A stretch of 59,305 bases of DNA from Saccoglossus kowalevskii (taxonomy: Eukaryota; Hemichordata; Enteropneusta; Harrimaniidae): NCBI RefSeq assembly GCF_000003605.2, contig NW_003107089.1, positions 491,772-551,076 on the forward strand. Reading direction: 5' to 3'. The position numbers and the translations under genes are program-made. The notes under the pieces are model-generated. The model was not told where the DNA came from and ran no database searches. It saw only the letters and a list, made by a program, of their open reading frames with translations. This document shows, piece by piece, positions 7,301-49,800 of this stretch. Position 1 is the stretch's first letter. The number at the start of each line of letters is the position of its first letter.

Positions 7301-8399
7301 GAATGCAAATGATAAAGTAGTTGTGTCCAATGAAGATAAAGCTATCTCTCAAATGTTTGGATGGATACTCGCCGTAGTGGGCGTTTTAATAATAATACTC
7401 ACTTACTGTCTTAGTCGAAGTTTTGGTCGATTCACCTATGCACAAAGACAATATGCAATGTTTTATAGTGCGGCGGAAAAGCAACTGTTTGAAATAAAAG
7501 CAAAGGTAAATAATAGTTTGTCTTGTCTCTTGATTCAATGAAATGTGAAAATTCTATAGTATTATTCAATATTATTATGCATCTGTCATCGTAACGCCAT
7601 AAGTTACAGCGTGCCGTAATTTTGCGGTATTGCACTGGGTATTTTCATCCTACCATATAAGGAAATGTGAATTCCAAATTTGGAATGATTACGCGCTTAA
7701 GCGTCCTCTAATAATAAAAACAAACATGGCTGCCACCAGGGTTTGACCGGACTCCACACAAAGAAGTTCGCTGATTTTGTTCTAAACATTTTGGATTTCG
7801 GAAGGAAGGAAAAGATGTACAATAATAAGGCTATTACGAGGATATCTCAAAGTATGCGCTCAGACAGTACACCGTCGCATCGACCACCGCTGCGAGTCGG
7901 TCGATACTCCAGCTGTACTTTCTACGTACATACTTTGAAGTGTCTTTTTAATAACCTCATAGTATCCTCAGTATGTGTACAAAATCACAAAAGTGGTTAG
8001 AGGTTAAGGCGCCACAGTCGCGCAACCTTCGTTCGAATTTCGTGTAAATAATAAGCAAGGTATCAAACCTATTATTTTTTACAGGAGCTTGCAAAGAAAG
8101 AAGCCGACATAAATACTGAGAAATTTTTTGATCAACAAGTCATTGCTCCAGCCCCCCTGCTGACCAATGATGAATGGCGGGATATGCAGAATGCCTGGGA
8201 TACCGTCACTGTTATTGGTTCATGCCGTGGTGGAGGACGAGGCTACACTCCCCTCTATCACTGGGCGAAATTTGGTTCTGACGGCGAGTGCGTTGAGCCG
8301 GCAAGCACGCTATCGTCAACGTCGTTGAAAGGTGAAACAGTCGAATTATTAAAATCGGAATGTCACAATGTGCCCGTTTACGATTCTACCAAGCGTTAG
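4352..8399 (+). CDS. CALHM-like channel A (calcium homeostasis modulator family)
   Basis: Four coding exons: 4352-4556, 6963-7122, 7265-7505, 8085-8399; phases 1, 2, 0; 306 aa. The family (Ca_hom_mod, FAM26) forms large-pore, voltage- and calcium-sensitive plasma-membrane channels that can release ATP. Exon 1 begins with MD like other members, has TM1 (about residues 22-37), then the hallmark CPC motif at Cys45 and Cys47 and the start of TM2. Exon 2 holds GVLINNTTWRLVTGCCRI, a basic cytoplasmic loop and TM3 (KACLAPSAWIFISLL). Exon 3 holds two extracellular-loop cysteines (YGC and VPC), which probably pair with the CPC cysteines, and TM4 (WILAVVGVLIIILTYCL). Exon 4 is the cytoplasmic C-terminus with GYTPLYHWAKF, shared with B and C. 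An acceptor (TTTTCACAG) lies 12 bp before the ATG, so a 5' non-coding exon probably lies upstream. Diverged from B and C, so the older paralogue. Confidence 0.88.
5782..6132 (-). pseudogene. Unidentified coding remnant inside CALHM-A intron 1
   Basis: On the - strand, an ATG at 6132 (MATTPPKYVSIQVEG) meets TAA at codon 16. The same frame then stays open for about 100 more codons to 5782, with protein-like composition (segments DWYAIDLARETFTQLYERSV, FCPDNFENILSRVAVPRFF, GLKVGQATNQFGCFVRIEV). A coherent frame broken by one stop suggests a decayed transposon ORF or retrocopy. A poly-T run at 6340-6358 lies on its upstream side. I do not recognise the family. Confidence 0.35.
6339..6358. repeat. 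Poly-T run
   Basis: About 20 consecutive T in CALHM-A intron 1. On the - strand it is a poly-A tract 5' of the coding remnant at 5782-6132, so it is not that remnant's 3' tail. Confidence 0.8.
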
Positions 8400-13418: not shown

Positions 13419-15721
13419 ATGGATCAACTCAAGTATATCAGCAAAAAAATGGGTAACATTGTGACGGAAAATAATACAACTCTTACAAATATTCTGATCG
13501 CATTAACCACTGTGGGCAGCGAAGAGATCTTTCAAGTTACGGTGTTTTCCTGTCCATGCACCAACAGATCTCTCTATGGATTTATGTTCATTTTCTCTCC
13601 TGCATTTTTCTTATTATGTCTCGGTGAGTATGTACACTCGTTAGTTTTTTTTCCCACTAGGAATTAAACACAGACTGCATTGTCACTGATGTGCAAGAAT
13701 GTTACCGATTCCCTTGACAATATACACAGGAATGTATACGCTGAATAAAAATGTTCCAAACGTACTCAGAAAAATGAAGCGTTTCTAATAAATACAAGTT
13801 TCTTTCTGAAATGAGCACCCGGGTAATCAAACAACCGCCAAAAATATGTGGGAAGTAGATTTCCACAAAATAAAACACAGACTGCATTGTCACTGATGTG
13901 CGAGAAATCACGCGCGCAATGGTCCAAACATGATGATGACATTTTGTTGACAGAGACGGCATTTTCTGCTATTGTATTTGGCATTGTAGTCTTGAATTAT
14001 ATCACATTTTGGTCTCAATCCATGACACAAACACGTGATAACGAGCATGTAACAAGGGATATAATCTTTCTTAACATTCCTCATCTATGAATGTTTTCGA
14101 TCTGTAACGTCCAATCTGGACCAAGATAATAATTTACATTCTTATTATTCATTTAAATTTGCATACCGGTGTGGTATTATAATAAATCGTATTTTTCAAA
14201 TCATTGTGTATTTTTTTAAAGAAAGATAACGATTAGTTTGTAATTAATAAATCAATCAATAATAATAAATCATATATTAAGTAAATTGAAATACGGTAAA
14301 ATGAGTCTAACTGGTCTGTACATACCTGTATATATCATTTACCGCCGGAAAGTTGTACGTAAATATGTTTAGGAGTGGTTCCTTAGAATATAATGTCGGA
14401 AGTCACCCACGTGATTTTATAATATATTTGATTTCATAATTATAGAGTGCATTAAAACTCACAATTTCAATAATGTAATGCTCATTTAAACTGTCTTGTC
14501 ACAGGTATACTTATAAATAATAGAACTTGGGAAATAGTGAATGGATGTTGTCGAATTAAAGCTTTGTGTGGTGGGCACGCCACTGGGCAACGATGTCTCC
14601 ATTTGTGTCAGATGGTGGCGAAGTCGTGTCTAGCGCCCTCGGTGTGGATATTTGTGTCTTTTATGGATGGAAAGTAGGTCTTAGTATGTGACTATATTTC
14701 TTCGATTTTAGAGTCTTGTCAAATTGTTTGTTATATGTTTGCAAGTTTTGTTTTCAGTGTATTACAGCGCATACAATATTCGTAACATTGCAATCTATCG
14801 ATTTTGTTTTGATTACCATGGATATTGCAACGTGTGATTATACGAAGGAAGCTGTACATTATCCATACGAATCCCTATTTCCGATCACCTCCGCTTGGGT
14901 GAAGTTGATGGGGTTATTGAACAGTAATAAGAACTTTCCAAGGGAAGTTGCCCGTACGGATCTCGTCGCTGTAATCAAGTTCATAGTGTTAAATCATTCT
15001 TTTTTCTTGCAACTTCATACTGCAACGCAATAAATGAACAGATCTACAGTAATTGTAAATTGTTGTTAAAATAGGTACTACGCATGCGCTAAATCCATTG
15101 CACCCTGTGACGTACCAGATACAGTAGTATTACTGTCCAATCAAGATAAAGCTGTCTCTCACGTGATTGGTTGGGTATTTGCTGTGGTGTGTGTTGTCAT
15201 AGTAGTACTGAGTTATTGCCTGAATCGATGTTTTGATCGCTTCACCTACGCACAAAGACGATATGCGATATTTTATAATGAAGAAGAAAATGAGATGTTT
15301 GACATCAGAGCTAAGGTGAAATTGCTTTATTTTATATTACCTTAACACGTGTAACAATGAGACCAATCACAGAATTTGTAAATTAATTGTGCGTGTTCCA
15401 TCTATGTTCAAATTTACCAATCACAATAATTGTTTACAGGATCTTGCAAAAAAGGAAGTTGACATGAATACCAAAAAGTTCTTCAGTCAAGACATTCTAG
15501 AATCAGAACCACCGCTGACCGATGACGTATGGCGCGATGTGAAGAAAGCATGGGATTCCATCACCATTATTGATTCACGTTATGGTGAGAAAAGAGGGTA
15601 CACACCTCTCTATCACTGGGCCAAATTTGAAGCAGGCGAGGAGCCCGATAAAGAGACACCTCAAATGGAAATGACGTCGATTCTACCTGAGAAATCATCA
15701 CCATCGACTGAAGAAGTGTAA
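13419..15721 (+). CDS. CALHM-like channel B
   Basis: Four coding exons: 13419-13623, 14505-14673, 15075-15315, 15440-15721; phases 1, 2, 0; 298 aa. Same architecture as gene A: N-terminal MDQLKYISKKMG, TM1, CPC motif (VFSCPCTNRSLYG), TM2, exon 2 loop with TM3 (APSVWIFVSFM), exon 3 extracellular cysteines (YACAKSIAPC), TM4 (WVFAVVCVVIVVLSYCL), FDRFTYAQRRYAIFY, and exon 4 with GYTPLYHWAKF. Exon 2 is 9 bp longer than in A, adding three residues to the cytoplasmic loop. The stop is TAA straight after EEV; copy C reads on for about 14 more codons, and the homologous DNA persists past the stop in B, so B was shortened by a nonsense change together with a 1-bp deletion. The start is chosen at the ATG matching the family N-terminus; an acceptor ending at 13410 joins the leader exon. 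Confidence 0.87.
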
Positions 15722-20390: not shown

Positions 20391-22630
20391 ATGGATCAAC
20401 TCAAGTATATCAGCAAAAAAATGGGTAAAATTGTGACGGAAAATAATACAACTCTCACAAATATTCTGATCGCATTAACCACTGTGGGCAGCGAAGAGAT
20501 CTTTCAAGTTACAGTGTTTTCCTGTCCATGCACCAACAGATCTCTCTATGGATTTATGTTCATTTTCTCTCCTGCATTTTTCTTATTATGTCTCGGTGAG
20601 TATGTGCACTCGTTAGTTTTTTTTTCCCACTAAGAATTAAACACAGACTGCACTGTCACTGATGTGCAAGAATGTTACCGATTCCCTTGACAATATACAC
20701 AGGAATGTATACGCTGAATAAAAATAAAAATGTTCCAAACGTACTCAAAAAAGGAAGCGTTTCTAATAAATACAAGTTATGGTACTCGTGTTTTAAGTGC
20801 GCAATGTACCTAGCATGATAGTGATACTGTAATATGAATCTAACTGGCCTGTACATAACTGTATATATCGTTAGCTTCCTGAAAGTTGTAAGTTAATATG
20901 TTTGGGGTGATACCTTGGATACAATGTTGGAAGTCGTTACCTTTGTGATTTTATAATGATGATATATTGCTTAGAATGTATTTCTTATCAATGATAAGAT
21001 CGTTATTAAATAACAGAGGCAACGCGCATTTATCTGTATTGTCTTGTTACAGGTATACTGATAAATAATAGAACTTGGAAAANNNNNNNNNNNNNNNNNN
21101 NNNNNNNNNNNNNNNNNNNNNNNNNNNNNNNNNNNNNNNNNNNNNNNNNNNNNNNNNNNNNNNNNNNNNNNNNNNNNNNNNNNNNNNNNNNNNNNNNNNN
21201 NNNNNNNNNNNNNNNNNNNNNNNNNNNNNNNNNNNNNNNNNNNNNNNNNNNNNNNNNNNNNNNNNNNNNNNNNNNNNNNNNNNNNNNNNNNNNNNNNNNN
21301 NNNNNNNNNNNNNNNNNNNNNNNNNNNNNNNNNNNNNNNNNNNNNNNNNNNNNNCTGTGCCGAAAATACTTTGATTTTAAAGTCTTAAGTTGTTTATTAT
21401 CTGTTGAAAAGTTTTTTTTACTATTATATTACAGCAGGCGAAAATCAGATTCGTATGGGCTGTTATAAACATTGCAATTTAGACGATTTCAGACTAATGT
21501 AAGACTTTGTTTAGATATTTACTATGGCCAAGGTTTTCAATTACATATTTAGTAAATCAATTCCAGTAACATAAAAGCAAACGTTTTGCTTCAAATTGTC
21601 ACTTTTATATATTATTTCAATATTTAAATAGACAAATGAAAGGTCACACTTTCCAAGATACAATGTGTATTTGCCTCTAGTGTGCACATAAGTATTATGC
21701 CTTCGGTAGCGATCCAAATATACCAATTTCAGATTTATTACAGGAATCGTGTTATTCAGAGAGTATCAACAATTACGACGAACTTGTTCAATTCATTAAA
21801 AGTGACTCACAAACGATGGCGCTAAACTAAAATCCCACGACGAACTAAAAAAGGCTTAAAGATTAAAATTGAACATGCTAAATCATTCTTTTGTCTTGCA
21901 ACTACAAATTACAATGAAATAGATAATCAGATACAACTATGTACAATAATTGTTATGGTTTTTTTAATAGTTACTACGCATGCGCTAAATCCATTGCACC
22001 TTGTGACGAACCAGGCGCCGCAGTATTACTGTCCAATCAAGATAAAGCTGTCTCTCACGTGATTGGTTGGGTAATTGCCGTGGTGTGCGTTGTCATAGTA
22101 GTACTGAGTTATTGCCTGAATCGATGTTTTGATCGCTTCACCTACGCACAAAGACGATATGCGATATTTTATAATGAAGAAGAAAATGCGACGTTCGACT
22201 TCAAAGCTAAGGTGAAACTGCTTTTTTATTTTATGAAACATGCTTCGCAAAGGGACCAATTTCAACATTTGTTAAACAATTCCGTGTGTTCCATCTATGT
22301 TGTTTACAGGATCTTGCAAAGAAAGAAGTTAACATGAACACCGATAAGTTCTTTAGTCAAGACATTCTAGAATCAGAACCACCGCTGACCGATGACGTAT
22401 GGCGCGATATGAAGAAAGCATGGGATTCCATCACTATTATTGGTTCACGTTATGGTGAGAAAAGAGGGTACACACCTCTCTATCACTGGGCTAAATTTGA
22501 AGCAGGCGAGGAGCACGATAAAGAGACAACCCAAGAAGAAATGACATCACTCTTACCTGAGAAATCATCGCCATCGACAGAAAAAGTGAAATACACTCCC
22601 GAACAAATTGAATTATTAGCAACCGAGTGA
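20391..22630 (+). CDS. CALHM-like channel C (exon 2 largely in an assembly gap)
   Basis: Exon 1 20391-20595, exon 2 from 21053 (only 30 bp visible before Ns), exon 3 21971-22211, exon 4 22310-22630. Exon 1 differs from B at one residue (Lys for Asn at position 14) and includes the CPC motif. Visible exon 2 reads GILINNRTWK, as in B. Exon 3 carries the extracellular cysteines, TM4 and the FDRFTYAQRRYAIFY helix. Exon 4 carries GYTPLYHWAKF and runs to TGA after TPEQIELLATE, about 14 residues longer than B. If exon 2 has B's length the protein is 311 aa. Splice phases of all visible exons match A and B. No disabling change is visible, but integrity across the gap is unknown. Confidence 0.82.
21083..21354. 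other. Assembly gap (272 N)
   Basis: Run of N covering most of CALHM-C exon 2 and the start of intron 2. Open frames across it are artefacts. Confidence 1.
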
Positions 22631-27029: not shown

Positions 27030-30000
27030 ATGACCACATATATTCATCACCTTATACTTATAATTTCCTACCATACAGTTGGTAAGTTGATGAACGTTTT
27101 TGGTATCAGCACCTTTTCACCATCTGCTTGCTAGATACTTAAACTGCAAGGACAATACACAGAAAATTAAACTTATAATTTAATTAATAATTGTTCCCGC
27201 TTTTTCTTTATTACTTCTCTTCCATGTTCGTGTTTTTTTTTATTTTATGATATTGATTTTTTTAATTTTTGCGTTAATATTTATATAACATTGAATCTTA
27301 AATCTTTATATTCACATTGTTTGTATAAAAAACATTATTTGTTTCAATTGACAATCCATCTATATAAAATAGACAAGATTATAAAAGTTGTAATATGGTT
27401 TACCTTGCAGTCACCTCACAACGATGCGAATCGAACTGGTTAACTTATGCACAAAGGTGTTTTCTCTTAGAAGAAGCAGATCAACCAGTCACGTGGTATG
27501 AAGCCACGCAAGCCTGTGAGAATAAAAATGCGTACTTGGTTGTGATAGAAAGTCAAGAAATCAATGTAAGCTTACACATGTTCATCTCTTTTATAATAAG
27601 CTTCACTTGTACAGAAATATGTTCATGTATTTTGTTGACATTTTATTATGAGTTAGATTCAACATTCAGTTTTTTTACGATCAATGTTTTTTTAAACGAA
27701 ACTGAAATTTCATCATTTCTCAGGCACAACGCTGAAAGGCCCGTTCTAAATACAACAGTTTGTATTACGTTTACTTGAATTCAAAAGCATAACTATATTT
27801 TAAGGTGATGGACGCCGCGATACGCGTGTTAGAATATCACGTGAATAAACAATGTATTTACACGTATTATATATGTCGTATGAGACACATATCGACCACG
27901 ACGCTGCACATACCCGACAACAATCACCTATTGCATTTACATGATTAATTATATCCAATAGCCTAGAGATGCCCAAACATTGACAGGATGCATTGATGTC
28001 GCACATCATAGTGCTATAGTGTAATCAGCGTCAGCTGTCATGTCAAAGCGCCCCATACAGACAGCTTAAAGTGCACGTATTAGTACTACCAGAGCGAACA
28101 ACGCCCCCATGTTGTGCTAAATCGATCACATAAAGCCCGTTTCATTTTTTTCTTTACTATAATTTTTAAGTCATTCCTGCGTTTGTATGTAAATTCATAT
28201 TGGCACGAATTAATCCAGTATAACAATCTTCAGTATAAACGCAGTACATAGAACTTGCCTACTGGGGACGTGCCCACGAAATGGGTCTCGTTTTGGGGAT
28301 TTTAGGTATAAGTATCGGTCTTAATTCTGGTCAAGATAGTATAAATATCGGTAATATTTTTCCGAATTGGTATAAATAACCTGAGCATTGTGTTATTAAT
28401 ATGCTCTTATGTAAGTGACAGAGTTGTTTTTTTATGTTCAAAATACATACTTTAATAAATCAATATACAATGCAACTGTTGGCTTACATGCTCTTCTAAT
28501 AGAGCAAATACGGTAACTGTTTTATTTGCAATAACAGTGATGACAGAAATGATGCTTTGGTATAAATATGGGTATAGATTTTGCCACTATCCAGGTATAA
28601 AAATGGTCTTACTTTTGAGCACTCAGGGGCACCTCCCTACTCAGCTATGTATCAACTGCCCCCCGGAAACACGCATCCAACTTCATTTTAATTTTATTTC
28701 CCAGAGCTTCCTCCAGGAGTTGGCTACAATGAATTACTGGATTGGTCTCCATGACATTGGAAATGAGGGTACTTTCACATGGATTGATGGCGCAATATTA
28801 GACAACAAGGCATATACGTAAGTTATCCATTAGTATTACTTTATAGAGGGGGATAGCTGGTACAGTTTTACAGGAAATAAAAAGGGCTTTTTACAATTTA
28901 CAAAGAAAAAAAGACGTTTTTACAGTTCACAGTGAAAATTGAATGTTTACAGTTTACAGAGAAAATAAAGGTTATTTTACATTTTACGTAAAATTAAAAA
29001 AAAGAAAACCAAGAAAATTCTTGTACGTACCGAAAAAATTACACATTTTTACGACGTACGAACAAAATATTTGATTGATTACGTTGTACGTCTAGCCTGT
29101 GATTACAGAATTACGGAATTTATTTTTTCAATTTACGTTGTACGAACAAAAAAATATTGCAATTACGTTGAACGAAAATAACCCTTGCCCCCCTCTTTAT
29201 AGTAAACAAGCTTCTGGGGGTATGGAATTTGTATACTGCACCAGACTATGGGGAACATGTTGTTGTCTGATGAGGTACAAAATACGCAGAGACAATCTAC
29301 ATTCTTGTTGCACATTTATAACGCATATTTACTTAAATATTAATTTAGTCCAACAACATACATTAACATGTATTTATAGAGATTAACAATAATATTTATT
29401 TTCTTGTATGTCAGAAACTGGGACTCAGAACAACCTAACAATTTGGACAGCGGTGTCGGCGAAGACTGCACTGAGATGCAAATAAATGGTAGATGGAATG
29501 ATAAATCATGTGACGACACATCGACATTGGATGGTTACATATGTCAAAAAGCAATGGGTAATTTGTTCATTTCCCCAGAGGAAATGGCATCAATTACTAG
29601 ATTAAAATCTGTATACAGTGTTCTCCTATATTGTACTCACTAATGATGTTTGTTTAAATACTGCTTATATAAATTCAAAGAAATACAATTTGTACAACTC
29701 AGTTTAGTGTGTAATGTCAGTGCTACCCATACTGACGTGATGTAAACTGTGGTTAGTAGCTAGAAATTCAATGTTTGATTTTGTTTTATACATAGATGTT
29801 CCAATAAGATGTGACGAAGACAATGGGTGGATGTCCGTTAATGATAGGTGTTACAAGTATAAAGACACCGTTAAAACGTGGGAGGACGCAAAGCAATGCT
29901 GTGAGAAAATGGGTGCGGACCTCGTCAGAGTACAGAACCAGATTGTACAAGACTACGTTACTCAATTAACAACAATAACTTCACTGTGGATTGGACTCTC

Positions 30001-33000
30001 AGATAATGTAAGACAATTACGTTACTTTATTCTCCAATCATGACATGATCATGCTGCATGTTAAACATCACTATTTGATGCATTTTTGAACAGAAGACGG
30101 CGAAAACTAAAAATCAAAAATTAAGGAGTTTGTAGAAAACGATTATAGCCTTAACATTTAAAAGTACTTTGGAGATGGTCTCAGAGGTCATGCACAATTA
30201 ACATACATTAGCATATAAGTTGTAAGCATAGTTCCAGAAGCTGTTTATTTTCACAAATGTGCGTTACTTTTTACACGTTGAGAAGAGGTTCACAATTGTA
30301 AACTATAGGTGCGTCATTTTCGAGGCATCAACTCGATGTTAATTGGAAGCATATATACAAGGCAGAATTCGATACACCAACAAAAACATCTCAACGAACA
30401 TGCTGATCTCTGATTGGTATGTCGGTTAGGTGTTTGGGGTGGGTTTGCGGTGCATTGACTGTCGATTCAACTTGGCTTGTATTGTGACATATGCATGAAG
30501 CATCTATGTAACCCTGTCTGTCACATGGAAACATTATAATTCAGTGTCAGGTATATAACTATGACTAAATTTGCATATAAATTAGGTGATATAAATGGCG
30601 AATTGCAGAATACAACATAGTATAGTATTTCATTGAGATTCAATAAAACATATACAATTGCATTTTCTTGTAGTGGCTCAAGAACAAGTGATGGTGAATT
30701 TGGGTAACAACCTTGAATCAACAACGAACTGTAATTTTGTATTCAATATTGGGTCTGCTTTATAAAAGAATAAAGTATTTATAGTAACAAATATTTTTTT
30801 GGAATATACTCATAACATTTGTACCAAATGCCATTTATATATATTGTAAATTATATAATAACACGGTTGTTTGTGGTCAATGACCTTTACCGAACGAAGT
30901 TAAAAAAAATGTAAAAACACAAAACGTGTAAAATCACCAATTTAATTGTAAATTTCAATTCCTTGCAGATTAGTGACCAAAAAGGAGAGTATTCATGGGC
31001 CAATGGATCACCAATATCTTATACAAACTGGGCACTAGATGAACCACGCAATAAGTAACTATTTTATTTATTTAGTTTTATTATTTTCCTATTGTTTACT
31101 TCACACGATTTTCTTTTTCCTGTCTATCCTATATTTCACATTCCCAATAATTGCTCTAAATAAACCATTTGTAACTCAAAACGATATATTATCACTTTTT
31201 GCTTATCCAACTTTACACAAATTAAACTATGACTACACGTTCCCTCGGAAGTTGCATTTATTCGTGTTAATCAACAAACATTTGGTATATTTTTTTGTGA
31301 TAAACAACTTTCAAGTACATCTGTAGTGGTGTGCTTTGTAAGTCCTCAATATGACAAATATAGAACATTTCTTGTTCCATAATACTGTCAATGCATACTA
31401 TAGAATGAATACATTTATAGTGATGATAATGAAATCCAGATATTTGCACTGCGCTCTCCAAGTTCTGTCAAATAGACAGTGAAGTAAACCATTATCTTGT
31501 TTTCATTGTGTAGTGTCAATAATTTTTGACGCCCAATAATGCCAAATACATCGCTTTTTTTTGCTAAAATGTTGGCTGGTATTTGTCTTGCCAAATTATG
31601 TCTTAGATATATTACTTTACTATTATTTGAGACCTTTTTAACAATTCATGTTATATGCGTTGTTTCAGTGCTTTTATTCTTATTTATTTATTACCAGGCA
31701 TTAGATGCATTGTTAGGTTATATCTTATATAATCTAGATTTTCAATGGGAACAATTGTAATAGTCACGGTATGTTCTTATAATCCTCGGTTCAAATATTA
31801 CACTTGTATAAGCATATTTTATTTAATCTAGTTCCGCAGACAACTGTGTAACCGCCAAATTATCTAAGTGTGGTCAGTGGATCACGGCGTCGTGTGCGAC
31901 AAAACTACCATTTTTGTGTGAAAAACCTGAAGGTAAGTTCATATGACAATTGTCAACATATTCTGAAATGTCAGAACATTAGCTTATAGTTGATTCAGAT
32001 ACAGAGATTGAACAATATTTCGTTATTTTGATGATTCAGATAATGATTATGACTATAATATCAATCATTAATTGTACTATAGCATAATCAATGACCATCA
32101 CTCATTAAACACTATGAGAGTAATGGCCACTATAATTACGTTTGATGACGGACTGGTTATTTGTCTTCATAAATAGAATATGTCAGTACCCAAATAAAGA
32201 GGTTGTTTTACTTTAATCAAATTTTGAGAAAGTAATTCTACTTGTCAATGTTTGGTCTATGTAAACAGGTTCATGTGCACCTGGATGGAAGATATACAAG
32301 GGTCACTGTTATCAATACCAAACACAAGTTTCCTCTTCCTGGATCAATGCCAAATATACTTGTGATACGCAAGGAGCGTATCTGGTCACCATAGACACGT
32401 AAGTCATATGTGGTTTACTTAGAAACCATGCCTTCACGATTTCTTCATTAATTTAGAAATAAATAAATAATTTCTAAACAGTATTATGTAGAATAAATGC
32501 ATTAAGAGGTATAAGAAACTGAGACAAATCAACTATAAATTTCTGTTTTGCAAATTTTTGCAAATATACATGATTGGCTTCTGAAAATCACCCTGTTACA
32601 CAATTTTGTTAACAATAATATGTCTATAACACAGTTAATGAAATTAAAGATATTTTTCCGATCATTGTTTTCCAACCTATATTTTATTGTTAGACCCAAT
32701 ATGCCAGCACTGTACATGATAGTTCATTTGTTCAAGTTAATACAATCATGAGCTGGAGGGATTACAAGATGGTATAGCAAACATTCTGATTTCGTTTGTT
32801 GTTTTTCTGTGTTCCTATCTTCCTTCTATGTACACATTATCTGAGAATTAAATAAAATCATAATATGATAATAATTTCTTTATATTATTTCACACTGAAG
32901 AAAAGCTGAGCAAAACTATCTCATAAGTGAGTACTCAGCAGAACGTAACAACATTTGGATTGGCATATCTGGTAAGTCTGATAAACCCAGATATTATTAA

Positions 33001-36000
33001 ATCTTTATTACAGGATATAAAATTGAAAAGTTCCTACATCTCATATGAAAAAAAACAAAAACAACAACAATATATATAAATAAACAAAGAGAAAAAACAA
33101 ATATATAAAAAAAGACTTGACTTATAAATAAATTCATTGTTCTAACAATTAATAATACAATTTCCTCGAATAGACACCAGAAGTGATGGAGAGTTTGCTT
33201 GGAGTAGTGGCTGTCCTGTATCGTATACTAACTGGAATGAGGCGCACCCACTTAATATGTTTGGACAAGAAGATTGTGGTACAATTTTTACTGGTGAGGC
33301 ATACATAGTTAATCATGATTGCGATATCATACTAACAGACGTAACCATATAAGTTGTTCAGCGCGTGAAACTGATCCACCCGTTGGCAGCGTGTGTAGAA
33401 TATTATTTTGAAAACTAACTGTAATAATATTGTCTGCAAAACCTTTGCAACATTGTTCTGTAATCACAGTCGTTAAATATACATCAGTCGATTCAAATAT
33501 CTCAGTTTGTTCAAAAATAATTAATCACATTTATACTCAGGGGCATCAAAAAGGATACATATCGGCAGATTAAAGGTTGGGACAAGCTTTGACCTATTGA
33601 CATCGTTCCCTTAAATTTTAAAGGTGGGTATTCTGGTGAACGTAAATGGCGAGAAGACGGACGCTGTGGACATGAATACCCGTACAACGGAGAACCTGCT
33701 GAGTGTGATCCAAATCATGGCAAACCATGTTGTTCTTCAAATGGATTGTGTGGAAATACCGAAGATCATTGCATGTGTGCCACATGTACTGACTACACTC
33801 AAATATATGGTTAGTGATGATGTGTTTTGATTTCAATTCTTCAGATTTCATCTTAATAATCAGAGGGTCTATATAATCTCGCATTTATATTGTGTAAACA
33901 TCATGTACAACATGCCCAGCCGTTATTCAAATTAACAATCCAAGAACACAAAATACATGATTGACAAACAATATGTGAGTGATAGTTCGTCAAAAGTAGA
34001 AATAAAGTAGAAATCCAATAAATCCAATCAAAAGCAAAAATGCAAAACATAACAAAATCATCTCATTATTAAGTGTATAACAATTGATTTTAAAATGGTC
34101 ACTAAAGCAATGTTTTCATTCTACTAGGGATTGGCCAGTGGAGTGCATCAGATTGCTATCTTCAGAGAGGCTTTATTTGTGAAATACAAGCTGGTAAAAC
34201 ACATGTGTGGTTTCATAGATACTTAAGTTTGTTTGTCTGTGCGTGGTTGATAATGTAATGAAATGTGTACCAGATCATTTTTAATCAGTTATTCAGACAT
34301 CTTTCTACTGTGTCTATATTCGTCTTATAAACAATAGTTAAACTTCTGACTAAATGCTACAGCTACAATTAGCAAACACTCGGTGGGAATAATTGTGTGT
34401 GATATTGCATAGCTATCTAGTGAATCAATCAAATCAATTCAAATCCAATTGTCCAACCTTTGTTCATTCACAGATATTGATCCAACATCGCCAGTTCAGT
34501 CGGTTGTAGATGTGCACTGTGATGTGGCATGGGACCTTCACGGTGACTACTGTTATTTATTTGAAACTAATAAACTTGCCTTTCACGAGGCAGAAGCTGC
34601 TTGTGAACAAATGGATGCTAAATTGACAAGCATATTGAACTTATCAGAGCAGAAATTTATCAGTGGTGGGTAGTATTTTACTTACTGAATTATGGCACCT
34701 CTTTTGTTTTCCAAGATTAAAAACAATCCATTGTGTAATCTATTTTTCTGAGAGAGTTAATACAAATTGCATAATCTAATTTTCACATTTAGGTCGAATT
34801 GACAATCGTCGTACTCCAATGTGGTTTGGGTTGCATGACAGAAACCACGAAATGCAGTGGGAGTGGACAAGTGGAGACGAGGTAAGTCAATAACTCACTT
34901 CATTATTCAATAGATTTGACCTTGTCCAGTTTCCCACGCCAAAAATTGTAGTGTTACTGTTTGAAGCAGATTATTACTAACTAAATATATTTGACCTGTC
35001 CATATATTCGTATATAGTCAGGTGTTAGGTTAACTACAAATTTGAATCAAAGTTTGTACTTTTTATATGTATTTTATTTTCGTCACAATCATGCAAAAAC
35101 AAGAAGTATTCATTCACTTACTGTGTTGTTTAATTCCATAGTATAGCTTCACAAACTGGGCTGATGGGGAACCCAATAACTATTTCCAAGTAGAAGACTG
35201 TGCTCATATAATTGTAGACGAATCAAGGAATGGTGAATGGAATGACATCACTTGTGATACTGATTTAGGATATATCTGTAAAAAGAGAAAATGTGAGTAT
35301 ATACAAGTAAATGGTGTGTTATCCGTCTATTTCACAGTTTGGAAATTAGCTAAAATGTTGTTACGTCAAGGTAATCGTGACCCGTCCAGAGTGACATTCC
35401 AGCATTTGGACAATCCGGACATCTGTCCACGTCTGTGTGTGTGTGTGGGGGGGGGGGAGTTGTCATGAAACAACAGAAAGAAGTAATAAGAGTTTGTTGG
35501 GGTCCAATATTTTAAATCAATATCTCTTGGGTGTAAGGTAAATATGACTTCACTATGTAAATCGACAGATTATCACCTGATCAATTTTACTACGTTAAGC
35601 CATACTTACCTTACACCCAAGATATATTGATTTAAAATATTGGACAGTGTACAAAAACTTACCAAGGATGCGTGTAATGTGGTCGGAACCCAAGAACTAC
35701 AACATTAGTTGATCATTTAATCCAAGTCGAAAGGGGCACACAATATAAAAACCCGCACACAACTATTAAAAGAAGTAGGATAGACTTTGGGTTCCAAATT
35801 ATTATTTTTGTTATCTAAAAAGATAAAACACATGTTGCCAACAGTTTACTGAAGGAAATGTTTCAAGCGGCGAAATCCTTGTATTCATTTGAAATGTTAC
35901 TACTGGGGGGTACTATGCAAATAGCAAATAACACAAGGGGACCTAAATACAAGTTGAAAAGTGAGCACATAAAAAGTTTTTAGCTCAGGATCCGATACTA

Positions 36001-39000
36001 GTTTTTTCTGCTTTCCTGTGCTATGATGTACTTGTGCACACCACCATTTCAGCATGTAAACTGTAAAATAGGGTAATAGTATGTTTCACTCTTTGGCTAA
36101 TGATTCTATGGCATGTGCCTGTGTTCTGTTTCCTGCTCGTATAATATTCAAACACCTGTCTGGCATTGCCAGATGACAGCTTTTAATTCGATCCCCTTCT
36201 CGCTGCACCCTGTCCATGACGTAAGCAACTATTGTTGTGTTGTTGCAGAGAACTATAACTACTTTTCTGTTGAGAACAAACATCCCCAATATGTTTATGG
36301 GTCGCATCACTCCCTGTGTGTTCCATCTCACTAAATTTCACATCCATGAGTTGATGGAGTGATCTGCAATCCCTGCCAAATATTTTGTCCACCCTCCCGT
36401 ACCGAGCGGGTAGCTTGTCTCCCTATAAAAATTGCCTATTTTGCTAATAATTCCACTTCCCGCACTATCACATTTGCATTTAGTTAATCAGCGGGTAGAC
36501 ACATTGATAATTAATTTCTCATTAATAAAGGTTGGTTGTCAAACATAATCATGGGACCATCTCTATTTCGGATGTGTTATAGCCCATTAATGGTCTTCCT
36601 TGCCACCAAATGTTCGCCTAATGAAACTCAAAATCATCGTCATGTAATAGTCAACAATTTATTACCAGTAAAATGGGAGGGAGACTGTGCATTGTAATTG
36701 CTTGTTTTATTATATTTTTATGATTTGTTACAGATGAGGGCGTTTTCACAGCTCCTCCACCACAAGTGCGTAAGTGAATTATATATAACTCATTTATAAA
36801 TACTGGTAACCCATTCATTACTTCTTGTAGCCATATATTAATACTGGTAACCAATATACCAGTACTTGTAACACATTTATTAGTACTGGTAACCCATTTA
36901 TTAGTATTAGTAACTTATTTATTAGTACTAACCTAATTAAAAGTACTGGTAACCCATTTATTGAAACAGGTAACCCATTTATTAGTAATGGTAATCCCTT
37001 TATTAGTATTGACAACCTATACAATATATAGTAAGGTTATATTGATTCTGGTAACCAATGTATTTGTACCAGTAATCCATGTATTGGTGATGACAATGGT
37101 AATACACACTAGTATATTCCTACTAGTAATTAGTCCTAGTATACCATGAGTTACTCCTTGCCAAGGGTACATTGATTTGAATTCCGCAGATGCCAGTAGT
37201 AAAAAGTTCTTTTCATCCAAGGTGCAAACTCAGCATTTTGCAGCAGCGCACAACGAGGTTGGCTTATTAATTAAGCTCTGCCGAGCGTCCCACCTCGTTG
37301 TTGTCATATAAATATTAGTTTAGTTGTTATTTGTAATGATAACACATACACTGTTACTGGTAAATATTTTTTGGTACTGGTAACTAAGATATTAATACTA
37401 ATAAATTGTAATCCATATTAGTATCGCTAACCGACACTTTAATTCTGTCAATCCTGTATTGTATTGTAATGATAACCCATACATCGATTATTTTACGTCT
37501 ATGATAATGCTATTTCAAACCATCTTTTTGGCGACAGTGTGGCGAATTTGCATCAGATTTCCTGATATTGGTACTGGTACTGGTAACATATATCTAAATA
37601 TCAGTATTAGTAAACCATATAGATTGCTGTATCACTGGGTTTCTTTTTTTTAATTAAGGTTACCAATCAACAGAATCAACAGAAACAATATCATCCAACA
37701 AAACGTGTCCACAATGTGGTACATGGACGGAAAATGAAGACCACTGCTATATCATTATCAAGATCGAAAAAAACTGGCCAGAAGCATGGTTTGAATGCAC
37801 TAGATATGGCGGTTATTTATTGACTATTAGCAGTCAAGAGGAAAATGATTACATTCATAGTATACTAAAGGGTGATACAGGGAATTTGTGGATTGGTTTA
37901 AAAAAGAACATACTTGGTACGTTATAAGGGTGTATGATTGGACCATTCGAATTAAATCAACGTCTTCTCACTTAACCTCCCACACAGTATGATTGTACGC
38001 TTCCACGTAAATCAATGTCTTATCACCTAGCCTCCCACACAATATGATTGCATGTTTCTACATAAATCAATGCTTTATCACCTAGCCTTCCACACTGTAT
38101 GATTGCACGATTCAACGTAAACCAATGTCTTATCACCTTGCCTCCAACATAATATGATTGCATGATTCAACGTAAACCAATGTCTTATCACCTAGCCTTC
38201 CACACAATATGATTGCACGATTCAACGTAAACCAATGTCTTATCACCATGCCTCCAACACAATATGATTGCACGATTCCACGTAAATCAATGTCTTATCA
38301 CCTTGCCTCCAACATAATATGATTGCATGATTCAACGTAAACCAATGTCTTATCACCTAGCCTTCCACACTGTATGATTGCACGATTCAACGTAAACCAA
38401 TGTCTTATCACCTTGCCTCCAACACAATATGATTGCATGATTCAACGTAAACCAATGTCTTATTACCTAGCCTTCCACACTGTATGATTGCACGATTCAA
38501 CGTAAACCAATGTCTTATCACCTTACCTCCAACACAATATGATTGCATGATTCTACATAAATCAATGTCTTATCACCTAGCCTTCCTCACAATATGATTG
38601 CACGATTCTACGTAAATTAACGTCTTCTCACTAAGCCTCCCACAGAATATGATTGCACGATTCGACTTAAATCAATGTCTTCTCACTCAGCCTCCAACAC
38701 AGTATAATTGCACGATTACAAGTAAATCAATGTCTTTTCGCTTAGCTTCCCACACAATATGATTGCGCGATTCGACTTAAATCAATGTCTTCTCACTTAA
38801 CCTCCCACACAGTATGATTGTACGATTCCAAGTAAATTAATGTCTTATCACCTAGCCTCCCACACAGTATGATTGCACGATTCCAATTGAATCAATGTCT
38901 TCTCACCTAGCCTCCCACACAGTATNNNNNNNNNNNNNNNNNNNNNNNNNNNNNNNNNNNNNNNNNNNNNNNNNNNNNNNNNNNNNNNNNNNNNNNNNNN

Positions 39001-40479
39001 NNNNNNNNNNNNNNNNNNNNNNNNNNNNNNNNNNNNNNNNNNNNNNNNNNNNNNNNNNNNNNNNNNNNNNNNNNNNNNNNNNNNNNNNNNNNNNNNNNNN
39101 NNNNNNNNNNNNNNNNNNNNNNNNNNNNNNNNNNNNNNNNNNNNNNNNNNNNNNNNNNNNNNNNNNNNNNNNNNNNNNNNNNNNNNNNNNNNNNNNNNNN
39201 NNNNNNNNNNNNNNNNNNNNNNNNNNNNNNNNNNNNNNNNNNNNNNNNNNNNNNNNNNNNNNNNNNNNNNNNNNNNNNNNNNNNNNNNNNNNNNNNNNNN
39301 NNNNNNNNNNNNNNNNNNNNNNNNNNNNNNNNNNNNNNNNNNNNNNNNNNNNNNNNNNNNNNNNNNNNNNNNNNNNNNNNNNNNNNNNNNNNNNNNNNNN
39401 NNNNNNNNNNNNNNNNNNNNNNNNNNNNNNNNNNNNNNNNNNNNNNNNNNNNNNNNNNNNNNNNNNNNNNNNNNNNNNNNNNNNNNNNNNNNNNNNNNNN
39501 NNNNNNNNNNATCACCTAGCCTCCCACACAGTATGATTGCACGATTCCAATTGAATCAATGTCTTCTCACCTAGCCTCCCACACAGTATGATTGCACGAT
39601 TCCAGTTGAATCAATGTCTTCTCACCTAGCCTCCCACACAGTGTGATGGAACGATTCTAAGTAAATCAATTTCTTATCACCTAGCCTCCCACACAGTATG
39701 ATTGCACGATTACAAGTAAATCAATGTCTTCTCACTAAGCCTCCCACACAATATGATTGCACGATTCGACTTAAATCAATGTCTTCTCACTTAGCCTCCA
39801 ACACAGTATGATTGCACGATTACAAGTAAATCAATGTCTTCTCACTAAGCTTCCCACACAATATGATTGCACGATTCGACTTAAATCAATGTCTTCTCAC
39901 TTAGCCTCCAACACAGTATGATTGCACGATTACAAGTAAATCAATGTCTTTTCGCTTAGCTTCCCACACAGTGTGATGGAACGATTCTAAATAAATCAAT
40001 GCCTTATCACCTATCATCCAATACAGTATAATTGCACGATTCCAAGTAAATCAATATCTTCTCACATAGTCTGCCACACAATATGATTGCACGATTAAGA
40101 AAATAACCACATGTGCTTGAATAAATTACAATATTGTATTGATTCATTATATTCCAAAGCGTATTATTATTGCTTAGGGAGGAATCAACATCAGTAGATG
40201 TTTTATATTTTATTGAATCACTTAGGGGTTTTTGAATGGATAGACAATGATAATATGCCTTATTCCAACTGGGTAGCAGGGGAGCCTAACGACAACGATG
40301 GAATAGAAGATTGTGTGGAGATGTACGAGTCTGGACAATGGAATGACAAAGATTGCTACCATAGAACTGGATTTATGTGCAAAGCAAATAAAGGTATGAA
40401 TGAATTATCGCATATAAAATTACTTGGAAGATATATGCAAAAATAGGTTTCTGATGTATTCAGTATGATTACATAATAT

Positions 40480-40534
<55 letters not shown>

Positions 40535-41404
40535 ATTGGAATATTTTTTATTTTGTTCAATTTATCTTAAGATTACAGAACAGAAACCCCTGACTGCAGT
40601 GGTATGTATACACAAGATGAAATTTCAAATTAAATAGTGTTTTCTATTTTATGAAATTTGCAATGCCTAGTCCATGACTGGCTTATGTTTATGGGTATTC
40701 AATTACCAAGTAGAGAGATGTGTGTTAACCTGGTCTGTGTATGTCAAAATACTTTTTGGAGTAATGTCCGTTTGGTAGTTATTTGCTTTGTGCCATTGTG
40801 CTGTCTATTCTAATATTATAACGAAAACCTTGGTTAATGGCAGTTTGAAAAATTTTACATATATTGGCTGAATCCTTCTGACTTTATATTCATATAGATA
40901 ATATGAAATGACACACAGACACTACACTCGCTAGATGTATTTTATCGTATGCTATTTCTCATGCTTTCCATTCAGTGGAGCTTGGTATATGCTGCTTCAC
41001 ATAACCTTATATGAAGATATGCGTAAATCACTTCATGAATGAGTCAACTGAGTGTGTGTGTGTGTATGTGTGTGTGTATCACTTGTGTACAAAGATACCG
41101 AATACCAATAACACATTATCTACCTATGTACACTTAAATACATGTATGTATTACAGGATTAACTAATACTTCTAGAGGACTAAGTGGTGGAGCTATTGCT
41201 GGTATCGTCATTGGTTCACTTTTCGTCTTGTTTCTTCTCTATGTATGTAAAGACAAATGGTGGCCAAAGCCTTGCAAGTCGTCCAATAAAAACACACCCA
41301 CAGCTACCACTGTTAAACCTGTTGTTGAGTCTGTTGAATTCGAGAACAACCGAGCTAATGATCCAACTATTGAAATAAGTGACACGGTTGCTCTACCTTT
41401 ATGA
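27030..41404 (+). CDS. Five-CTLD type I membrane C-type lectin receptor, mannose-receptor-like
   Basis: Twenty exons in full phase agreement, 868 aa: 27030-27081, 27411-27565, 28705-28817, 29415-29557, 29796-30007, 30969-31054, 31832-31932, 32269-32398, 32901-32971, 33174-33293, 33624-33809, 34128-34193, 34474-34665, 34793-34881, 35142-35292, 36734-36769, 37659-37916, 40226-40393, 40572-40601, 41157-41404. The signal peptide is MTTYIHHLILIISYHTVG. CTLDs lie at about residues 20-153, 157-286, 288-477, 490-621 and 648-776, each with WIGL/WFGL-type cores and C-terminal cysteine pairs. Calcium and sugar motifs: CTLD1 QPN with WND; CTLD2 EPR with WIT (degenerate); CTLD3 no EPN and WSA (degenerate); CTLD4 EPN with WND; CTLD5 EPN with WND (CTLD4 and 5 mannose-type). 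CTLD3 is split by a hevein-like exon. TM helix about 798-817 (AIAGIVIGSLFVLFLLYV), then a tail of about 51 residues with no tyrosine. Likely an endocytic or pattern-recognition surface lectin. It lacks the N-terminal ricin-type and fibronectin II domains of vertebrate mannose receptors. Confidence 0.88.
28241..28664. mobile_element. Inverted-repeat transposon copy 1, in lectin intron 2
   Basis: Shares GGGGACGTGCCC, AAATGGGTCTCGTTTTGGGG, TTTTGAGCACTCAGGGGCAC and CTATGTATCAACTGCCCC with 43141-43544. The left end (ATACATAGAACTTGCC region, GTGCCC) is loosely the inverse of the right end (GGGGCAC, GCTATGTATCAACTGCC), the mark of a non-autonomous DNA transposon. It ends about 40 bp before exon 3. 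Open frames inside are not genes. Confidence 0.72.
33624..33809 (+). other. Hevein-like cassette exon inside CTLD3 of the lectin receptor
   Basis: A 186-bp exon, phase 1-1, 62 codons, flanked by TTTTAAAG and GTTAGT. The reading holds KWREDGRCGHEYPYNGEPAE, then a Cys-Cys pair in CCSSNGLCGNTEDHC and CMCATCTDY: eight cysteines. The CC-x5-C-x6-C spacing and the GxCGxT motif match hevein / type 1 chitin-binding domains. The hevein aromatic positions (W21, W23, Y30) are here Asn, Leu and His, so classic chitin stacking may be weakened. The exon lies between EDCGTIFT (exon 10) and GQWSASDC (exon 12), halves of one CTLD; skipping it keeps the frame and rebuilds an ordinary CTLD. Domain likeness is from pattern; function is inferred. 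Confidence 0.72.
35432..35458. repeat. (GT)n(G)n microsatellite
   Basis: A GT run passing into a 9-bp G run, in lectin intron 15. Confidence 0.85.
35502..35645. mobile_element. 144-bp foldback element (MITE-like) in lectin intron 15
   Basis: A 45-bp arm starting GTCCAATATTTTAAATCAAT is matched at the other end by its reverse complement (ATTGATTTAAAATATTGGAC) with only two differences, around a 54-bp centre. No target duplication is obvious. Confidence 0.8.
36795..37620. repeat. Degenerate minisatellite, GGTAACCCATTTATTAGTAC type
   Basis: Repeated TACTGGTAACCCATTTATTA motifs of about 18-20 bp at 36795-37130, with scattered relatives to 37620, all in lectin intron 16. A short inverted pair (ACAACGAGGT and ACCTCGTTGT) at 37250-37301 lies in the middle. 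Shadow frames rich in LPVLING are artefacts of the repeat. Confidence 0.8.
37931..40098. repeat. 55-bp minisatellite array in lectin intron 17
   Basis: Tandem copies of a 55-bp unit (TATGATTGCACGATTC, then AATCAATGTCTT, TCACCTAGCCTCCCACACAG). About 18 units lie left of the gap and about 10 right of it. The central units are highly alike and the edges drift, and there is a higher-order alternation of subtypes. True length is uncertain because the array spans an assembly gap. Confidence 0.95.
38926..39510. other. Assembly gap (585 N) inside the 55-bp array
   Basis: N run with array units on both sides. The gap size is probably only an estimate, since identical repeats block assembly. Confidence 1.
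40478..40530. repeat. (TTTA)n microsatellite
   Basis: About 13 TTTA units in lectin intron 18. Confidence 0.95.
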
Positions 41405-46877: not shown

Positions 46878-49800
46878 ATGTTGCTGGAAAGCATATTGTC
46901 TGTTAGTCTGACGTACAAATTGATAGCGGTTGTCATAATCCTATTGGTTGCCCTAATGCTATGGAGCATCCATCGACCATCTGGTATGCCCCCTGGACCA
47001 CGTGGTTTTCCAATTATCGGCAGTATGCTATGTAAGTATCATGACACTTGTTTCAATATACATGAAGTGCCAGATTAATTATAATAAGTAGTGTAGCGCA
47101 TGAATACTAATTAAAACAAAACTGTGTCGGAATTTAGTTTAGAACTCTAATGATATTCAGTAAAAGTAATATACTATTGATAGTATCGTTTTAATCATCG
47201 CTGATTGAAAGTACACACGTCAAGCTGAACAATTTGTTGGCCAAATAGTTAGCAGAAACATTAATTCAATCAAAATATTGGTGATTGTGCCTATATTGAA
47301 ATAGTTTGCCCACAAAAAAAAACTAAAAAAAAGCACTCTATTCATCCATACTTTATACAGCTTTGACTGACAATTTACACCTGGACTTTTTGCAAATGGC
47401 TAAGGAGTACGGAGACATATTTACCATCAAGTTAGGCAGTCACCAAGTGGTAATAGTGAATAGCTATGAACTGATCAAAGAAACATTGGTAAAAAAGTCG
47501 ACTGATTTTGCCGGGAGACCGCAGTCGTTTACGGGTAGGTTGTATGAATCAAAAAATACTAGAAACCGATTTTGTGTCACAAATTTAATAGAGATTGATG
47601 TATTGATGGCGAAAGCATATATTTTAGCATTTACTGTCTGTTTGTATACATGCAATATCTATACCTATATCACCTATACCAATATATATAATTTACTGCT
47701 CGTCCTAATGCAATTTCATATATTTGATAATTCGGATCGATTAAAACTTGTATTATATTTATATCAAACATAACTTTCATTATCAAGGCCATCTATTTGT
47801 GTGCATTCCCGATGTTTAAATAACATTTTAGGTTCTTTTTATAGATTCTGTTATATAAGATTTCCCTGCAGATTAAAAGGGGGTATACGCATTTTGAACA
47901 CATTCCTAATACGAAAAATCAAGTAAAAATATGAATGTAAGTGCTGGTATGCAGGCGAATAAAACGATGTTTGCAATTAGGTTTGCATAAATATATTCAT
48001 AACCGATTGATTGTGAATATTCAAATTGGTTGAAAGAGCTTTGAGACATCTGCTATTTACAATACAGGAAAAGTGTTATCCGAGGGATTTAAAGACATAG
48101 CCTTCAGTGATTATAGTCCTGCATGGAAACTGCATAGAAAGATCGCACACCAAGCAATAAGGTATCCATAATTCTCTTGCTATGCATTGAATTACAAGAT
48201 TTAGTTATCTGATATACTGGTACAACTTCCCGAACGAGCCCCCTAGATCTTTACAAAACTCGTGTGTCTACAACGATTGTTAAAAACTAATTTACCAACA
48301 CTCACTCTATACATTCAACATATATCTACTTAATATAGTGAATATATATTAATGAGGCAATGTAGATATATGTAGATATGTTTTAGGTTAATATAGACTT
48401 GTTTGACGACGACTGTGTAATAGTGCCGATCAGTCTTAAGATGATTGTTGATTGTCTACAGAAATCTCAATTGAGCTTGCATATGCATATAAATTACAGA
48501 GAAGATTCTGGTTTATATAAAGTCTCTGAGACAGCTGCTCATGCTACAGCATTTTATATATAACAGTCGTGATATAACTGTGATGACATTATATTTTCAG
48601 AAATTATGCCAGTGGTGATAAACTAGAAAACATGATGCGTAAAGACGCAATTCCCTTACTGTCACAGATACTGGAAGACAATGAAGGAAAAGTTATTGCC
48701 CCAAGACCTCTTTTATTTTTAACTGTTAACAACATCGTTGCTCAATTCTGCTTTGGTCAAAAGTAAGTGTACTCAAATGTTTCAATCATTTGCTTAACAA
48801 AGGTTTCAAAATTAACGCATACATTAATGTGTCACATCTGTCACATCTGCCACATACAAGTGTCGTCAAATTTGAAATACATGATAAAATTACCAAAGTT
48901 GTATGACATATTTCATAAAATGAAATAAACATTTTTACGTGATTTATTTTCTACATTTTGGAGAAACATATTTAACCCGGTTAATCTAGGGTTTGTGGAG
49001 AAACTGATAAAATATTATATATGTAAAATAGTATAGCAGTAGTCGATTCATTAATGTCAATTCTAGGTATACACTTGATGACCCAGAGCTTAAAGCCTTC
49101 ATGGACATTATAAACGATTTTGCAAATATAATTGGCAAAGGTTTTGTGGTCGATGTGATTCCATGGACGGCCATTTTTCCAACTTCAGCTGCTCGGAAAT
49201 TCGACAAAGTCAATAACAAATATCTTGGTATGATTTACAAGAAGTTTTGCGAGCATAGGCAGAAATTTGATGAAGGTATTTGCAATGTTCTTGTATAACT
49301 GCATAGGCTAATTGCTCTTGTTTGTATTAAATCGAGTATTAAACATTTCCGTTAGATAAATTATTATTTGAAAGGATTTTTCTGTGGTTTTCTTATACCA
49401 TTCGAAAATAGATACAAACAGCAATGCGACAGTCTGATTGGTCGAGACGTATTCGATAGATTATATTACTTAAGTAAACAATTATTCACCATATACATGC
49501 ATGCAGATTGTATTGCACTTAACTTTTCATGTATTTCTAGATAATTTGAATGACCTCATTGACTACTTACTCGATGCTCAACGCCAAGCCAAGGAAGAAA
49601 ATGCTAACATTAGTAGCCTGACAGATACACATTTGGTGCAAACAGTTTCTGACATGTTTGCAGGTTGGTCGATAAATGCCACATATTGTCAGAATTGTAA
49701 ATGCATAAATTATTATTATTAAGTTATTTACTTAATATTGTAAAATCTCTATTTTTCTACAGCTGGTATTGATACGACCACCCATACAATGGATTGGTCA

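Follow-up and report, generated by a model that had tools for sequence, protein, structure and literature searches.

A hevein-like domain very probably nested within a C-type lectin domain of a predicted Saccoglossus kowalevskii receptor

How does a small cysteine-rich module come to lie in the middle of another folded domain, and what might it do there? The question is raised by a 59,305-nucleotide stretch of the Saccoglossus kowalevskii genome (contig NW_003107089.1, positions 491,772 to 551,076; GC 35%), referred to here as the window, in which an exon with the cysteine spacing of hevein interrupts the third of five C-type lectin domains (CTLDs) of a receptor-like gene. Domains are more often fused end to end than inserted one inside another, and in a limited search of the open-access literature by titles and terms we found no description of a hevein-like domain inside a CTLD.

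The gene was modelled by hand, using reading frames, splice consensus and homology, as 20 exons between positions 27030 and 41404 of the forward strand (Table 1). The model encodes 868 residues, the only stop codon being the terminal one, and its product reads in order as a hydrophobic leader, five CTLDs, a membrane span and a short tail. A Pfam scan of the whole 868-residue protein returned five Lectin_C stretches (346 bits), and each CTLD scanned singly gave one Lectin_C match (72.8 to 90.5 bits, exon 11 being left out of CTLD3). The 19-residue Kyte-Doolittle mean exceeds 1.6 in one stretch only, starting at residues 793-802 and followed by a short charged tail. Five Lectin_C stretches, a single hydrophobic stretch and a short tail are most simply read as a five-CTLD membrane protein of type I. 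The least certain exons of the model are 16 (36 nt), because it is so short, and 19 (30 nt). Within the CTLD5 intron, tandem copies of a 55-bp unit (18.1 and 10.6) lie on either side of a gap of N (37933-40096).

Table 1. Layout of the 20-exon gene model (positions are those of the window)
Feature	Position	Strand	Evidence
Exon 1: start codon and putative hydrophobic leader (MTTYIHHLILIISYHTV)	27030..27081	+	leader by sequence reading
Exons 2-4: CTLD1, QPN and WND motifs	27411-27565, 28705-28817, 29415-29557	+	Lectin_C 86.8 bits
Exons 5-7: CTLD2, EPR and WIT motifs	29796-30007, 30969-31054, 31832-31932	+	Lectin_C 74.2 bits
Exons 8-10: CTLD3 as far as strand beta3 (EDCGTIFT)	32269-32398, 32901-32971, 33174-33293	+	
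Exon 11: hevein-like domain, 62 codons, phase 1-1, eight cysteines	33624..33809	+	
Exon 12: end of CTLD3 (GQWSASDC...GFICEIQA)	34128..34193	+	
Exons 13-15: linker and CTLD4, EPN and WND	34474-34665, 34793-34881, 35142-35292	+	Lectin_C 89.2 bits
Exon 16: short linker, 36 nt, phase 1-1	36734..36769	+	gene model only
Exons 17-18: CTLD5, EPN and WND	37659-37916, 40226-40393	+	Lectin_C 90.5 bits
Exons 19-20: linker, membrane span (about residues 793-820), cytoplasmic tail, stop	40572-40601, 41157-41404	+	

Elsewhere in the window, three similar C-terminal exons lie upstream of the gene (8055-8399, 15320-15721 and 21927-22630) and suggest a putative tandem cluster of CALHM-like channel genes; the frame at 21927-22337 matches the Pfam family Ca_hom_mod (E = 3.7e-12), and the three C-terminal frames themselves gave no Pfam match. 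A cytochrome P450 exon (PF00067, E = 3.5e-12) is present downstream at 47327-47773 (+), and a phosphotransferase-like frame (APH, PF01636) at 980-1453 falls just short of its cut-off (23.1 vs 23.2 bits).

The inserted exon is 186 nt long, preceded by AG and followed by GT, and separated from its neighbours by introns of 330 and 318 bases. Direct reading of its peptide gives eight cysteines in the spacing CC-x5-C-x6-C (CCSSNGLCGNTEDHC). Exon 10 ends in ...EDCGTIFT/G at 33293 and exon 12 resumes with /GIGQWSASDC, so that the insert interrupts CTLD3 within its beta3-beta4 hairpin, between C2 and C3, the third and fourth of the conserved CTLD cysteines. An initial annotation of this DNA had described a self-contained 62-codon, phase 1-1 exon with eight cysteines splitting CTLD3 in the hairpin before the WND strand, and the model at 33624-33809 bears this out, including the outer coordinates (exon 10 starting at 33174, exon 12 ending at 34193).

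CTLD3 itself remains intact around the insert. Without exon 11, CTLD3 scores 72.8 bits against Lectin_C and covers profile positions 2-106 of 107; with it, the score is 59.3 bits over positions 2-99 (cut-off 22.6 bits). The C2-C3 spacing of CTLD3 is 76 residues with the insert and 14 without, against 13, 15, 17 and 13 in its four sister domains, which indicates a length-tolerant hairpin and a clean addition. The CTLD fold is described as having a disulfide between C2, at the start of beta3, and C3, ahead of beta5 (PMC6468738), and this bridge would close the loop that carries the insert. A tblastn search with exon 11 found no second hevein-like copy in the window (the other two rows had E values of 1.7 and 3.3). 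When the window was searched with a DNA pattern for CC-x5-C-G, only exon 11 and one other site, 14546-14571, were found; the latter is open in one frame (NGCCRIKALCGG), which by tblastn has no similarity to exon 11. AlphaFold2, given exon 11 alone as a single sequence without an alignment, returned a low-confidence model (mean pLDDT 49, pTM 0.25) that lends the fold no structural support. We are highly confident of the architecture itself, a hevein-like domain nested in CTLD3; the gene is unusual, yet built from known parts.

The identity of the inserted module was examined against PDB chain sequences with phmmer, where BbtPGRP3 came top (E = 3e-11 for 4zxm_A and 5.4e-11 for 4z8i_A). The remaining three rows at E <= 10, two plant lectins and one conotoxin (E 0.53-6.1), were not significant. 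4ZXM is reported to hold the same sequence stretch as 4Z8I, but its model shows the PGRP domain only (PMC4610682). Between exon 11 and the BbtPGRP3 chitin-binding domain, 26 of 56 residues are identical and all eight cysteines are aligned. The local alignment score of 161 was reached by none of 5000 shuffles in which every cysteine was kept fixed (mean 57.3, sd 11.3, maximum 130), and the reversed exon 11 peptide had no PDB match and no Pfam match at E <= 10. The cysteine-fixed shuffles and the reversed peptide together rule out a chance cysteine pattern, and the hevein-like identity proposed at the outset holds.

Profile searches, the check suggested for that proposal, speak for it in part. 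Pfam Chitin_bind_1 (PF00187) matches exon 11 with E = 5.7e-4, but at 20.5 bits the match falls under the curated cut-off of 27.8, and when all 868 residues were scanned at E <= 0.01 the family was not listed. The chitin-binding stretch of BbtPGRP3 is likewise under that cut-off (23.9 vs 27.8 bits). A two-sequence profile reached plant lectin-C (E = 3.4e-5), lectin-D2 (0.006) and hevein 1t0w (0.018), together with sodium channel chains at E 0.27-0.93, which we take as chance. An NCBIfam scan gave no match, and the exon 11 pattern, found once in viral contigs and 25 times in prokaryote genomes, was in no instance confirmed by tblastn; coming from viral and prokaryote collections, this result has no bearing on relatives in animals. 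The alignment with BbtPGRP3 extends past the hevein core into WR.DGRCG..YP on one side and C.C..C.DY on the other, so that exon 11 is, as judged from its alignment, the animal BbtPGRP3-like form of the hevein-like domain. Four disulfide bridges are described in the BbtPGRP3 domain, and the eight cysteines of exon 11 align with theirs (PMC4610682). Among animals, 43 hevein-like matches have been reported in Branchiostoma and 8 in arthropods (PMC5297725).

Whether either partner is likely to bind sugar can be read from its ligand residues. Calcium-dependent sugar-binding C-type lectins are described as carrying the motifs E/Q-P-D/N and W-N-D (PMC6468738). By this test CTLD1, CTLD4 and CTLD5 have both motifs and CTLD3 fails, with HPL and WSA at the places of EPN and WND in CTLD4 and CTLD5, so that by its motifs it would be a CTLD that does not bind sugar, as had been noted of the host from the start. 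CTLD3 also holds a seventh cysteine (SSGCPVSY; within 32901-33293), beyond the six of a long-form CTLD, which by analogy might pair with another chain, as described for long-loop cysteines of some venom lectins (PMC6468738). CTLD2 (29796-31932) has two extra cysteines, in QCCEK and in the beta3-beta4 hairpin (SKCGQW), making eight altogether.

For the insert, the relevant comparison is with the chitin contacts reported for BbtPGRP3, namely Ser51, Trp53, Trp55 and His62 (PMC4610682). Two of the four equivalents are kept (Ser38 and His49, in the numbering of the 63-residue stretch), and Asn40 and Leu42 stand in place of Trp53 and Trp55. The initial annotation saw in CTLD3 a scaffold showing a second glycan-binding module, which would make the insert a working binder of chitin or peptidoglycan. 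This reading draws on clear homology to a domain that, when isolated, is reported to bind chitin beads and that raises peptidoglycan amidase activity (PMC4610682), on the retained serine and histidine, and on other aromatics in the exon (Trp9, Tyr19, Tyr21 and Tyr58); but the two positions lost are those whose double alanine mutant, W53A/W55A, is reported not to bind chitin beads (PMC4610682). In nematodes, hevein-like domains that have lost the first aromatic and carry Tyr in place of the second are nonetheless regarded as possible binders of chitin (PMC5297725), which means that missing stacking residues do not by themselves disprove binding. In the insert, by comparison with the nematode domains, both stacking positions are non-aromatic; with no aromatic left there, ordinary chitin binding by the insert appears unlikely. 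Insert and host domain both lack residues that usually hold sugar, and together they probably do not form a second ordinary sugar-binding site. Of the proposed module, then, the conserved serine and histidine stand and the stacking tryptophans do not, and we consider glycan binding by the insert an unlikely reading.

How the insertion arose was addressed by mapping introns. It had been claimed that an intron and a domain were gained together here, CTLD2 having the same region in a single exon, which is correct (exon 7). The hairpin intron is indeed present in CTLD3 only (0/4 other CTLDs), but every other intra-domain intron is likewise found once: of the ten sites at which introns interrupt the five CTLDs, no two share an alignment column, and sites in nearby columns differ in phase. 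As all ten sites are unique, the uniqueness of the hairpin intron proves little, and the unsplit hairpin of CTLD2 cannot date it; dating through CTLD2 was dropped once all intra-CTLD introns had been mapped. Capture of the exon by an older intron and joint gain of intron and domain fit equally. Most simply, a phase 1 intron would have captured a class 1-1 exon, a mode with which the phase 1 borders separating the CTLDs are also consistent. The 1020 bases at 33174-34193 contain no direct repeats and no repeat flanking exon 11; a single imperfect 13-base inverted repeat lies wholly within intron 11. A repeat-borne exon was rejected, there being no direct repeats in these 1020 bases and the sole inverted repeat being confined to that intron. 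For the amphioxus domain, the authors of the BbtPGRP3 study suggested horizontal transfer from plants (PMC4610682).

Skipping of exon 11 keeps the frame and leaves 806 residues. It had accordingly been suggested that skipping restores an ordinary CTLD, and that alternative splicing could toggle the receptor between two binding modes, with exon 11 as a cassette and CTLD3 in an ordinary lectin-like or an insert-bearing form. The skipped product does have a normal C2-C3 spacing and the better Lectin_C score, but it still lacks EPN and WND, so no sugar-binding alternative would result. The in-frame skip and the higher score are compatible with a toggle, but they are expected of any clean 1-1 insertion. 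In a leave-one-out matrix built only from the 19 donors and 19 acceptors of this gene, the exon 11 acceptor ranks 16th of 19, weak and with a poor pyrimidine tract, but exons 8, 10 and 19 have weaker ones (19th, 17th and 18th), and among the donors that of exon 11 is 10th; the donor of exon 10 (14/19) and the acceptor of exon 12 (12/19) complete the junctions. With sites this unremarkable by the 19-site matrix, a splicing switch inferred from weak splice sites was dropped. The ranks neither support nor exclude a cassette exon. We judge the toggle improbable.

The same acceptor, with its poor pyrimidine tract, and the loss of two ligand positions could also mark exon 11 as a relic, or as a stray exon that is seldom if ever spliced in or that is part of another product. 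Against this stand its open frame, matching phases on both sides and all eight cysteines, and its GC and third-position GC (0.45/0.28) are like those of the neighbouring exons 10 (0.42/0.28) and 12 (0.44/0.29). Its peptide has no start methionine, and the window holds no other hevein-like copy. We regard this as the least probable reading. With no start methionine and matching phases on both sides, a separate gene was rejected.

The account that we favour, with moderate confidence, combines a shuffled hevein-like module in CTLD3, a non-glycan role and constitutive inclusion. The exon of a BbtPGRP3-type hevein-like module would have been shuffled into a phase 1 intron of the CTLD3 hairpin, where the module would fold as its own knot at the hairpin tip, clamped by the C2-C3 bridge of its host. 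Calcium-dependent sugar binding would fall to CTLD1, CTLD4 and CTLD5, where Q/EPN and WND are retained. CTLD3 and its insert would bind sugar in neither standard way, and may instead provide a protein-contact surface, a spacer or an altered-ligand site within the ectodomain. Exon 11 would most likely be included constitutively.

More tentatively, the beta3-beta4 hairpin of CTLDs may be an acceptor for whole domains through 1-1 exon shuffling, in which two degenerate sugar binders could become one composite, disulfide-clamped recognition surface with a new ligand. This single gene displays the donor, a class 1-1 exon, the acceptor hairpin (13 to 17 residues in the sister domains) and residue losses on both partners. 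If transcripts confirm the model, it would offer a compact test case for exon shuffling in the building of nested domains, and for the fate of animal hevein-like domains after loss of the stacking tryptophans.

Several known systems share parts of this arrangement. The best PDB sequence matches of CTLD3 are PLA2R, an IgY receptor, DEC-205 and mannose receptors, and the mannose-receptor family (MRC1, MRC2, PLA2R, DEC-205) has, as here, several CTLDs, one membrane span and a short tail. In that family (group VI), ricin-B and fibronectin II domains precede eight or more CTLDs. The Pfam scan of the 868 residues found neither a ricin-B nor a fibronectin II domain, which sets the present gene apart from group VI; here five CTLDs directly follow the leader, and one of them carries the hevein-like insert.

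Plant hevein-type lectins (hevein, pokeweed lectins, Urtica agglutinin) share the CC-x5-C-x6-C core with exon 11, but exon 11 is longer by its animal flanks, lacks the stacking aromatics and scores below the Pfam cut-off. The hevein-like domains of nematodes are, like exon 11, animal domains that have eight cysteines and are altered at some aromatic positions, but in the nematodes studied there they are described as partnered with chitinase and LysM domains, not CTLDs (PMC5297725). Closest is the amphioxus BbtPGRP3 domain (PDB 4Z8I), which has both the N-terminal and the C-terminal flank in common with exon 11; it is reported at the N-terminus of a peptidoglycan amidase (PMC4610682), whereas in S. 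kowalevskii its counterpart is nested inside a CTLD.
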